From assembly GCA_001914695.1 (NCBI GenBank), contig MNCZ01000006.1:1-52292 (forward strand): a DNA stretch of 52,292 nucleotides, given 5' to 3'. Numbering within the stretch: position 1 is the stretch's first letter; each line of letters begins with the position of its first letter. Both the position numbers and the translations under genes were made by a program. This stretch comes from Gammaproteobacteria bacterium 13_2_20CM_66_19 (GTDB lineage Bacteria; Pseudomonadota; Gammaproteobacteria; Steroidobacterales; Steroidobacteraceae). Under the pieces are notes generated by a model. It searched no databases. It had not been told where the DNA came from and was given only the letters and a program-made list of their open reading frames with translations. Shown piece by piece: positions 16,571-25,709 of the stretch.

Positions 16571-16624
16571 CAAAAACAACAAAGAGCGGCAGACGCCCCG
16601 GCCGTGTGGCACCGCGCCTGCCGC
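16571..16624 (-). terminator. Intrinsic terminator of the glycine riboswitch expression platform
   Basis: On the minus strand an 11-bp stem (gcggcaggcgc / gcgtctgccgc, one G-U pair; plus-strand arms 16614-16624 and 16586-16596) with a 17-base loop is followed by a T-rich run (TCTTTGTTGTTTTT, 16571-16585). It starts two bases after the P1 helix of the second glycine aptamer and ends just before the gcvT ribosome site, so it is placed to switch transcription of the operon. Confidence 0.75.
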
Positions 16625-16625
16625 C

Positions 16626-16824
16626 CTTCTGTCCTGTGACCTGAGAGATAAGGCGCGGTTGGCGCCGCTCCCCTTCGGTGGGTGGACCCGAGCGCGGGCC
16701 CACCGCTCTCCAGAAGCCCCGCGGAAGCTCAAGCGCTCCGCCGTCTGCCGTTCGTGTGCCTGAGCGTTTCCGGGCGGAATTGCGCCTTCGGCGTTCCGGC
16801 TCGCGCCGGACTCTCTCCGAACAG
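16626..16824 (-). ncRNA. Tandem glycine riboswitch upstream of gcvT
   Basis: Two glycine aptamers are recognisable on the minus strand. Aptamer I (16748-16824): P1 formed by ctgttcg and cgaacgg, with GGAGAG after P1, CGCCGAAGGCGCAA in the core and CTCAGGCACACGAACGG at the 3' side. Aptamer II (16626-16716): P1 of cttctg and cagaag, GGAGAG, CACCGAAGGGGAGCGG and CTCTCAGGTCACAGGACAGA. The linker is 31 bases. The placement before gcvT is the classical one; glycine binding would be expected to turn on the gcv operon, here probably by preventing the adjoining terminator. Confidence 0.93.
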
Positions 16825-16842
16825 ACCGATTCGGGCCCCGGC

Positions 16843-23497: not shown

Positions 23498-23695
23498 GTG
23501 GCGTCGCCTGCGGTGTTCGACAAGCGGGCCGGGTTACCTCGGACCCTAATTGAAACACCCTCGGGACTCGTGGCTTGCGCGCAGCGCTGTGCAGGTCCGC
23601 CTGTGAGCGGAAAGCCTTACCTGCCGCACCTCGTCCCACTTGTTGCTCCGGTTCGAGAGCAACGGTTCGCACCGGCACATGCGGGTGACGCTACC
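23498..23695 (+). ncRNA. ssrS: 6S RNA
   Basis: Located between zapA and fau, the classical ssrS site. The 5' part carries TGTTCGACAAGCGGGCC, closely matching the E. coli 6S segment TGTTCGCAAGCGGGCC, and the 3' part has GAAAGCCTTACCTGC, matching GAAGCCTTAAAACTGC. The ends form a 15-bp closing stem (23498-23512 with 23680-23694, mostly Watson-Crick with G-U pairs). 6S RNA mimics an open promoter and sequesters sigma-70 RNA polymerase in stationary phase. The 3' end overlaps the predicted fau start codon. Confidence 0.92.
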
Positions 23696-24296
23696 TGAAT
23701 CCATCCCGGGCAACGCCCGCAGGCAGCTGCGCACCGTGCTCGCCGCGCGGCGCAGGAGCGCGCCGGCTGCGGAGCGCGCCGAGGCCGCGCTCCGCGTAGC
23801 ACGCAACGTCGACCGCGAGGTGCACCTGCGCTCGCGCTGGCGCATCGCCGTCTATGCGGCGCTCCCCGAAGAGCTCGATACCGCGCCGCTCATCGCGCTG
23901 GCGCGCCGCCGCGGCTGCCGCATCTACCTGCCGCGCATCGACCGGCGGCGCGCCTCGCGCGCCATGCAGTTCGTCGAGATGCGCGGCCCGCTCAAGCGCA
24001 ATCGCCTGGGGATCGCCGAGCCGCAGACGGGGGAGAGCCTCGGCGCGCGCTGGCTGGACGTGGTGTTCCTGCCGCTGGTGGGCTTTGACGCCCAAGGCGT
24101 GCGCCTCGGGACCGGCGGCGGCTACTACGATCGCGCGTTCGCCTTTCGCCGCTGGCGCAGCGCCTGGCACGTGCCGCGCCTGGTGGGCCTCGCCTACGCC
24201 TTCCAGCAGGTCGAGCGGATCGCGCCCGCCGCGCACGATGTGCTGCTGGACGCGGTCGTGACCGATGAGGGGATCATCCGATGCAGCACTGGCTGA
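23679..24296 (+). CDS. fau: 5-formyltetrahydrofolate cyclo-ligase
   Basis: 205 residues from the ATG at 23679; a GTG two codons later is an alternative. ATP-binding start RRQLRTVLAARRRS, and the C-terminal signature FLPLVGFDAQGVRLGTGGGYYDRAF (key residues Gly-Thr-Gly-Gly-Gly-Tyr-Tyr-Asp) around 130-155. It converts 5-formyl-THF to methenyl-THF. The gene follows 6S RNA as in enterics, and in the same window the gcv operon supplies the methylene-THF pool. Confidence 0.92.
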   Translation: MRVTLPESIPGNARRQLRTVLAARRRSAPAAERAEAALRVARNVDREVHLRSRWRIAVYAALPEELDTAPLIALARRRGCRIYLPRIDRRRASRAMQFVEMRGPLKRNRLGIAEPQTGESLGARWLDVVFLPLVGFDAQGVRLGTGGGYYDRAFAFRRWRSAWHVPRLVGLAYAFQQVERIAPAAHDVLLDAVVTDEGIIRCSTG

Positions 24297-24745
24297 TGAA
24301 GACCGAGCCCAGCACCTTCGGCGTCGAGCATCTCGCCGCCGCCCCCCGCCGTACCACCGCCTGGGACGGGGTGCGCAATTTCCAGGCGCGCAACATGCTG
24401 CGCGACGAGATGCGCCGCGGTGACGAGGCCTTTCTCTACCATTCGAGCACCGAGGTGCCGGGCGTCGTCGCCATCATGCGCATCGTGAAGGAGGGTTACC
24501 CCGACCCCACCGCCTTCGATCGCAAGCACCACCACTACGACCCCGACAGCGACCGCGCCGATCCCCGCTGGTTCATGGTGGACGTGCAGTTGAAGCGCCG
24601 CCTCGCGCGCACCATCACGCTGGAAGAGCTGCGCGCGCATGCCCGCAAGGAGCTCGCGGGGATGCTGCTGTTGCGCCCGGGCAATCGTCTGTCGATCACG
24701 CCGGTGAGTGAGGCGCACTGGAAGTTCATTCTCTCGCTCGAGTGA
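24281..24745 (+). CDS. EVE domain-containing protein (thymocyte nuclear protein 1 family)
   Basis: 154 residues. EVE fold with MQHWLMKTEPSTFG at the N-terminus, WDGVRNFQARNML near 30 and DEAFLYHSS near 52, related to PUA/YTH-type domains that bind modified bases. Overlaps fau by 16 bases. The precise ligand is unknown; binding of modified DNA or RNA bases is inferred from the family. Confidence 0.92.
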   Translation: MQHWLMKTEPSTFGVEHLAAAPRRTTAWDGVRNFQARNMLRDEMRRGDEAFLYHSSTEVPGVVAIMRIVKEGYPDPTAFDRKHHHYDPDSDRADPRWFMVDVQLKRRLARTITLEELRAHARKELAGMLLLRPGNRLSITPVSEAHWKFILSLE

Positions 24746-24780
24746 CTCGCGAGGCGCGGCGCCGCGCGCGGCTCGCGAGT
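24745..24780. terminator. Long GC-rich hairpin after the EVE gene
   Basis: A perfect 9-bp outer stem (actcgcgag 24745-24753, ctcgcgagt 24772-24780) encloses a self-complementary GC-rich interior. It starts at the last base of the EVE stop codon. No T-run follows, so termination efficiency is uncertain; it separates this operon from the micropeptide unit. Confidence 0.5.
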
Positions 24781-24821: not shown

Positions 24822-24849
24822 TTGTAATTTCGATTCGCGTGTATATACT
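24822..24849 (+). promoter_or_regulatory. Predicted strong promoter of the Lys-rich micropeptide
   Basis: TTGTAA (24822-24827), a 16-base spacer and TATACT (24844-24849, within TGTATATACT) form a good sigma-70 promoter in an unusually AT-rich stretch. Predicted transcription start about 24856, giving a leader of about 30 bases with the ribosome site GGAGAG. Confidence 0.7.
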
Positions 24850-24885
24850 CGGACCTCGGACTAACCCGTTAATTGGAGAGCCAAC

Positions 24886-24936
24886 ATGGCGAAGGCAAAG
24901 AAGAAGGCCAAGAAGAAAGCTGCCAAGAAGAAATAG
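24886..24936 (+). CDS. 16-residue lysine/alanine micropeptide
   Basis: The frame encodes [16 protein letters not shown] followed by TAG: 10 Lys and 5 Ala, net charge about +10. It has a ribosome site (ggagag, 24875-24880) 5 bases before the ATG, its own promoter upstream, and two hairpins immediately downstream, so it is a complete small gene. The codons are A-rich (AAG/AAA), unlike the surrounding DNA. The composition is that of histone H1-like or HctB-type C-terminal tails; nucleic-acid binding is inference. It has no identified partner; the next gene (rpiA) starts 113 bases later. Confidence 0.65.
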
Positions 24937-24942
24937 GCCTTA

Positions 24943-24972
24943 ACTCGGCGGTCACGCGAGTGGCCGCCGAGT
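24943..24972 (+). terminator. 13-bp hairpin with GCGA tetraloop after the micropeptide
   Basis: Arms 24943-24955 and 24960-24972 pair over 13 bases (one G-U) around a GNRA-type GCGA loop, 6 bases after the micropeptide stop. No T-tract follows, so it may act as a 3' stabiliser or Rho-assisted terminator. Confidence 0.6.
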
Positions 24973-24985
24973 CGGATTCTCGAGA

Positions 24986-25014
24986 ACTGTGCCCGCTCAC
25001 GATGCGGGCACAGT
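24986..25014 (+). terminator. Second hairpin, terminator-like
   Basis: Perfect 11-bp stem (actgtgcccgc 24986-24996, gcgggcacagt 25004-25014) with a 7-base loop, followed by cgtttc. With the hairpin at 24943 it gives a double stop between the micropeptide and rpiA. Confidence 0.6.
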
Positions 25015-25049: not shown

Positions 25050-25709
25050 ATGGCGACTGATGCCGACGCCAAAAAGCGACGCACAGCACTGGCGGCGCTG
25101 GAACTGGCGCGGCGCGAGGTCACGATCGGCGTCGGCACCGGCAGCACCGTGAACCTCTTCATCGACGCCCTCGCGGCGCAGCCCGGGAGCGTGCGCCGCG
25201 CGATATCGAGCTCGGAGGCGACCAGCGCCCGGCTGCGCGCCGCGGGACTCGAGATAGCGGATCTGAACGAGCAGAGTGGAATCGGCCTGTACGTCGACGG
25301 CGCCGACGAGGCGACCCCCGCCCGGCAGCTCATCAAGGGCGGCGGCGGCGCCCTCACCCGCGAGAAGATCCTCGCCGCAGCCGCGCAGCGCTTCGTGTGC
25401 ATCCTCGACGACTCGAAGATGGTCGCGACGCTCGGGCGCTTTCCCCTCCCCATCGAGGTCATTCCCATGGCGCGCGCTCTGGTAGGCCGGGAGCTCGGCG
25501 CGCGCGGCGGCCGCCCCGTGTGGCGCAAGGGCTTCGTGACCGATAACGGCAACCACATCCTCGATGTCCACGATCTCGAGATCACGGATCCGGTCACGCT
25601 CGAGCGCGAGCTGAACCAAATCGCCGGCGTGGTCGCGGTCGGGCTGTTCGCCGTGCGCCCCGCCGACCTGCTGCTCATCGGCACCGCGGACGGCGTCGAG
25701 ACCCGCTAG
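25050..25709 (+). CDS. rpiA: Ribose-5-phosphate isomerase A
   Basis: 219 residues from the ATG at 25050, equal to the E. coli enzyme. Phosphate-binding [15 protein letters not shown] near 30, active-site [10 protein letters not shown] near 80 and [13 protein letters not shown] near 94. Interconverts ribose-5-P and ribulose-5-P. A frame open upstream to 24873 crosses the micropeptide and hairpins and is not coding. rpe, the companion epimerase, is at 28774. Confidence 0.95.

Follow-up and report, generated by a model that had tools for sequence, protein, structure and literature searches.

A 16-residue Lys/Ala peptide gene between the EVE-domain gene and rpiA in Steroidobacteraceae, probably a shortened form of an H1-like protein

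The stretch between an EVE-domain gene and rpiA in the genome of Gammaproteobacteria bacterium 13_2_20CM_66_19 carries a real gene, one that is selected and protein-coding, for a peptide of 16 residues, 10 of them Lys and 5 Ala. Judging from its sequence and relatives, we think it reasonably probable that this is a gene for a free, disordered polycation and the orthologue of an H1-like protein of 75 to 201 residues, cut to 15 to 27 residues and kept by selection. As far as we have seen, a family-wide version of 15 to 27 residues that replaces a long form at one fixed locus is new, H1-like polycations themselves being known. A Lys/Ala protein of this size lies below the ordinary size of annotation and close to the smallest size at which one would still speak of a protein. 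The window referred to below is the whole stretch of DNA analyzed, 52,292 nucleotides in length, and the features named lie on its + strand unless noted otherwise.

A compact putative transcription unit

The first-pass annotation had described a promoter, a ribosome site, a 17-codon frame, and two hairpins, with a further hairpin upstream, all between the EVE-domain gene and rpiA; each of these elements was found where it had been placed, as was the unit as a whole. The sigma-70-type promoter (TTGTAA-16-TATACT, 24822..24849) was picked up by a promoter scan, which in the 3 kb around the unit returned 2 sites against a shuffle mean of 0.3. Its boxes, TTGTAA (24822-24827) and TATACT (24844-24849), are enclosed by a conserved block, CTTGTA...TATATACTC, of which TATATACTC (24842-24850) is invariant across 42 aligned loci. 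A GC-rich discriminator and leader follow (24850..24885), in which the element GGACTAACC (24858-24866), directly after the promoter, is likewise invariant across the 42 loci. The transcript is predicted to start probably near 24856-24859. GGACTAACC is conserved beyond the needs of a promoter, and it may be a regulator site or a signal at the 5' end of the transcript. GC-rich discriminators are a trait of growth-controlled promoters, and the one that follows the -10 box here suggests growth-rate control. The leader also holds the ribosome site GGAGAG (24875-24880; GGAGA at 24875-24879), and the frame for the Lys/Ala peptide (24886..24936) runs over 17 codons from the ATG at 24886 to the TAG at 24936.

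Beyond the frame stand hairpin 1 (24943..24972; 13-bp stem, GCGA loop) and hairpin 2 (24986..25014; 11-bp stem, ACTGTGCCCGC / GCGGGCACAGT), the latter a presumed intrinsic terminator. Both fold better than dinucleotide shuffles (z of -5.3 and -5.8). A strict terminator scan found no terminator around the unit; the T-run after hairpin 2, CGTTTCTG, is poor, and it is because of this weak run in the window genome that the scan misses the hairpin. The upstream hairpin (24745..24780; z of -2.6) comes directly after the EVE gene, has similar counterparts in near relatives only, and is probably the 3' end of that gene; it was left out of the unit.

A published neighborhood with an unremarked partner

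Upstream of the unit lie the gene that we take to be fau (ygfA), for 5-formyltetrahydrofolate cyclo-ligase (23640..24296), and the EVE-domain gene (24281..24745), whose product name comes from the first reading of the sequence. Downstream, 35 nt past hairpin 2, lies rpiA (25050..25709). The rpiA frame had been noted as open across the peptide gene, which is so in the window but is an accident, since stops fall inside that stretch in several relatives; the conserved part of RpiA begins near 25050. Because Rfam places a 6S RNA at 23502-23691 (+), between zapA and fau, the peptide gene belongs to the 6S RNA neighborhood, just past fau and EVE. At the peptide unit, Rfam finds no family. The same window also contains tandem glycine riboswitch aptamers (16619-16830, - strand), and frames resembling those of ribosomal proteins stand about 1 kb past rpiA on the opposite strand.

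The naming of fau agrees with the locus described in PMC7641849, where the zapB-zapA-ssrS-FAU1-EVE neighborhood, often with rpiA, was already published; the zapA-6S RNA-ygfA arrangement appears likewise in PMC9788540. In its available text, PMC7641849 gives the same gene order as the window, 6S RNA included, proposes that the zapA-6S RNA-fau-EVE-rpiA neighborhood is tied to growth state, and does not mention a Lys-rich or histone-like gene at the locus. No paper on the peptide gene was among the literature matches listed, and one may be in print elsewhere. The gene adds an unremarked partner to this neighborhood. In a subgroup of relatives (L032, L037, L039, L051, L058, and others) there is no EVE match, and fau lies directly ahead of the retained peptide gene.

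Selection acts on the frame

To describe conservation within the genus, we anchored loci on the neighboring RpiA and not on the peptide. RpiA was matched in 52 of the 60 relatives searched, and 30 loci were obtained; one from another family (L030) and one at a contig end (L031) were dropped, which left 28 genus loci, own genome included. The frame is kept in all 28, and no locus in the genus retains the hairpins while losing the frame. The 28 loci comprise 19 nucleotide versions that encode just three peptides (17, 16, and 16 residues, in 13, 10, and 5 loci, respectively). The first-pass annotation had proposed that synonymous and nonsynonymous changes be compared, and the comparison speaks for a coding frame: apart from a length change of one Ala, 18 of the minimal codon changes are synonymous and 1 is nonsynonymous, when 25 of 135 random single changes in the window frame are expected to be synonymous. 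With kinship among loci ignored, the synonymous excess has p = 1e-12 against random single changes and 3e-8 with transitions only. Codon statistics from the 84 loci found by residue pattern (see below) were not taken as evidence of selection, given that the pattern itself fixes the residues.

Mean pairwise identity in 25 of the 28 loci rises from 0.37 upstream to 0.88 in the promoter, 0.91 in the leader, and 0.94 in the frame (the last slightly flattered, as three loci are left out of the alignment, L008 and L009 because the residue pattern did not pick them up and L026 because it is cut by its contig), and it falls to 0.81 from the stop through hairpin 1, 0.77 over hairpin 2, and 0.42 beyond. 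In a small RNA, one would look for conservation of the RNA in places that lack a conserved frame; this we did not find, and the frame is more identical than the hairpins.

These observations bear on a choice that had been left between a polycation resembling an H1 tail and a small RNA in which the reading frame is secondary. We favor the polycation because the frame is the best-conserved part, because its changes are almost all synonymous, and because sister families have long H1-like proteins at the same place. That the unit would be a small regulatory RNA, or a dual RNA, with the frame secondary, strikes us as very improbable. Its shortness, the strong hairpins kept across the family, and the invariant 5' element GGACTAACC are what one might expect of such an RNA. 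An RNA that carries an idle frame nonetheless fits poorly, since the frame is constrained codon by codon and is better kept than the hairpins (0.94 versus 0.77 to 0.81); the long protein forms with a probably related promoter in relatives and the lack of an Rfam family at the unit argue in the same direction.

The short form across the family

A model of the promoter, leader, and frame built from 42 sequences (R1) matches the own genome once and, at E <= 0.01, 328 of 396 genomes of the order. Within the own family it matches 160 of 171 genomes at the same threshold, including 37 of 41 in the genus, by a hand count of rows that assumes the listed misses to be sorted by kinship. All but three of the 160 family matches are below 1e-9 (157/160), those in G395, G324, and G402 being weak. 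In the class, R1 matches 103 of 369 genomes (E <= 0.01), a count that we do not use because many of the listed matches cover the frame part only, at low scores. In the own family outside the genus, all 22 loci fetched (L146, L147, and L194-L213, a biased sample in that it was chosen by R1 match) have a frame of 15 to 27 residues; in L202 and L211 a later ATG was taken, as the first sits in the -10 box. The presence of the gene throughout the family makes its function testable in cultured strains.

A pattern for the exact peptide, run over the named-genome collection, gave 84 stretches, and in 83 of them fau, EVE, or rpiA is matched on the side where it would be expected; the exception, L046, is the beginning of a longer frame, rich in Lys, that lacks these neighbors. 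Seven of the 84 carry the label Steroidobacteraceae (L038, L049, L061, L085, L098, L107, and L111), and most others are labelled just Proteobacteria or Gammaproteobacteria, with L070 assigned to Pseudomonadales. One stretch, L068, is labelled Klebsiella pneumoniae yet groups with short-form loci in the EVE-protein tree, and the label looks wrong. In five cases, two contigs of the same assembly end near the peptide gene (L035/L089, L060/L081, L064/L092, L097/L113, and L063/L115); these ends probably mark points where the assembly broke on DNA that is near-identical in several species. A DNA search of the plasmid collection returned 16 records, all at 60 to 80% identity, and the ten listed match only the rpiA part.

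Hairpins in the family and a leader-peptide reading

Past the frame, within 110 nt, a TGCCCGC..GCGGGCA stem, which occurs once in the window, is present in 70 of 71 distinct short-form loci, and a GCCCGC/GCGGGC stem 3' of the frame is present in all 71. The stretch ahead of this stem folds with at least 8 pairs in every one of the 71 loci (z < -2 in 63, with single-base shuffles as the folding controls), and in other genera of the family the sequence at hairpin 1 is different and also folds. Based on this foldable stretch, the two hairpins are a feature of the family even though the sequence of hairpin 1 varies. Since the tandem hairpins are kept as well as the frame, an added role at the level of RNA is possible.

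Attenuator leader peptides (his, thr, phe) are encoded by a short frame rich in one amino acid that is followed by hairpins, and the peptide unit shares this layout. Could stalling at the ten Lys codons let the ribosome gauge charged tRNA-Lys and so control read-through into rpiA? The ten Lys codons in so short a frame, the unit's own promoter, the position of rpiA 35 nt past hairpin 2, and the foldable stretch and GCCCGC stem between frame and rpiA in 71/71 loci would all suit such a device, as would the AAGGCC/GGCCTT helix that may form over the frame in close relatives; that helix is absent in L043, L065, and L101, however, and the sequence of hairpin 1 varies. Unlike the known attenuator leaders, the peptide has no matching pathway downstream, and relatives carry long proteins at the same place. 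The Ala residues and the length are conserved too, not the Lys residues only. A Lys attenuator fits poorly because rpiA is, to our knowledge, not a lysine gene and because the same place can hold 75 to 201 codons, as it does in sister families; we regard this reading as quite improbable. The pairing of codons with a GGCCTT after the stop, present in close relatives and absent in others, was dropped as a candidate.

Long H1-like forms at the same locus

The DNA upstream of RpiA places was collected from 19 genomes of the order that lie outside the own family, of which L178 and L184 were too short and were dropped. Between fau/EVE and rpiA, 14 of the 17 testable loci have an H1-like frame of 75 to 201 residues rich in Lys, Ala, and Arg (one example begins MATKKRASKKKVASKKKAVVKK...), and the other three (L180, L190, and L192) have no long Lys-rich frame there. 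Two further long forms, L155 and L156, came from the class search. The window peptide has the traits that mark this group, namely, a Lys/Ala-rich frame with an MA start and KKK clusters, in a position between fau/EVE and rpiA. Upstream of 16 long forms, TATACT is found in 14 and the leader motif GGAC in 8; downstream, TGCCCGC..GCGGGCA is found in 8, followed by TTTT in 7. TATACT by itself is a frequent -10 box, and GGAC or the terminator motif is missing from one half of these long forms.

In the class, an EVE protein is present in 211 of 369 genomes. We sampled every other place among the matches listed, minus G000, G060, and G061, and fetched 74 stretches, of which five shorter than 600 bases were dropped. 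Of the remaining 69, a Lys-rich frame of at least 60 residues lies within 1.5 kb downstream of EVE on the same strand in 16 and on the opposite strand in none; the other 53 EVE-anchored loci have no such frame, so the long form is a minority in the class. The rpiA gene falls within the 1.5-kb stretch in just 5 of the 69, and 3 of these have the frame. For comparison, the 84 named stretches (1.24 Mb, counted over both strands) contain 2 other Lys-rich frames of at least 12 residues, one of them L046.

In an EVE-protein tree of 83 rows, the short forms cluster, and the g20 pair adjoins the long forms; L157, a long-form row on a long branch, falls among the short forms. The short label needs 3 changes on this tree and the long label 2, of which the starred branches force 1 and 2, respectively; L070, labelled as having neither form, is merely cut by the contig. 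Because low-complexity proteins cannot be proved homologous by sequence alone, orthology rests on the locus, the promoter, and the terminator. We infer that the change ran from long to short, and shortening near the base of the family is the simplest reading given that long forms occur in sister families and outside the order. Might the short form, then, be a decaying and functionless remnant of the long H1-like gene? The long forms in sister families would fit, but a remnant would not be expected to be present family-wide, to show almost no amino acid change in the genus, and to keep a conserved promoter, ribosome site, and terminator, and we give this idea next to no credence. The frames at this one locus, from 201 residues down to 15, amount to a natural series of deletions and pose the question of how long an H1-like tail must be to serve a cell.

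Two side observations concern individual loci. The long form of L187 (G058) looks frame-shifted near its end, where it loses the Lys-rich pattern that L186, from the same family, retains. In L160 and L167 (f97) and in L148 and L159 (f148), Lys-rich frames of about 16 to 30 residues occur without fau, EVE, or rpiA in the fetched flanks (the frame beside that of L148 is presumably adenylate-kinase-like), and these are possibly independent short forms.

A proposed polycation in the manner of an H1 tail

Among the closest described parallels is AlgP of Pseudomonas aeruginosa, which, like the peptide, has a Lys/Ala-rich, H1-like tail (PMC9239181). According to the available text of that source, a fragment of the tail and KPAA peptides bind DNA, and AlgP has been linked to the spacing of polyphosphate granules. 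AlgP differs in having about 350 residues, a helical N-terminal domain, and KPAA repeats, whereas the peptide has neither the domain nor proline.

We propose the following mechanism. The peptide would be abundant, made from its own promoter, the strength of expression being judged from the promoter only; hairpin 2 would end most transcripts, and part of the rpiA transcript would arise by read-through. Removal of Met would leave a peptide of 15 residues with a net charge of about +10 (over 15 to 16 residues) and no hydrophobic face, the Lys clusters of which would bind polyanions (DNA, RNA, or polyphosphate) without choice of sequence and neutralize or bridge them in the fashion of an H1 tail. 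We speculate further, and with slightly less than even confidence, that the peptide is a free-standing H1 tail reduced to some three AKKK units, which would place it with the smallest dedicated binders of polyanions or chromatin, and that it was cut down at the base of the family and then frozen with little further change in sequence. This proposal takes in a peptide of two kinds of residue besides Met, an ancestor of 75 to 201 residues, and an invariant promoter and transcript-start element; the family in question is, by contig titles, Steroidobacteraceae.

A peptide that is made but serves mainly rRNA or ribosome assembly, like a mobile tail of a ribosomal protein, is an unlikely alternative. 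Its composition resembles such tails, the GC-rich discriminator is like that of growth-controlled promoters, and DNA binding and RNA binding look the same in a sequence of this kind. Against this, the direct neighbors (fau, EVE, and rpiA) include nothing ribosomal, and 2 of 7 long forms resemble HC2. The HC2/histone H1-like nucleoprotein family (PF07382; NF038052, NF038053) shares with the H1-like polycation that we favor a Lys-rich, repetitive composition. It matches two of the seven long forms scanned over most of their length, below the curated cutoffs (25 to 33 bits of the 40 needed in Pfam and 20 to 27 of the 80 or 135 needed in NCBIfam), and in the other five there is no HC2 hit at E <= 1. 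A doubled copy of the peptide has no HC2 hit, a single copy being too short for the scan, and Pfam and NCBIfam have no family above cutoff. In the own genome, which is 82.6% complete, HC2 gives nothing at E <= 1. A search of 11 genomes for a longer H1-like protein elsewhere (one long-form query, E <= 0.001) likewise found none in the own genome and matched in G061 and G084 only. In these two members of the own family (L289 and L288, respectively), a Lys-rich region lies elsewhere, and in G084 it has an open frame of 184 residues.
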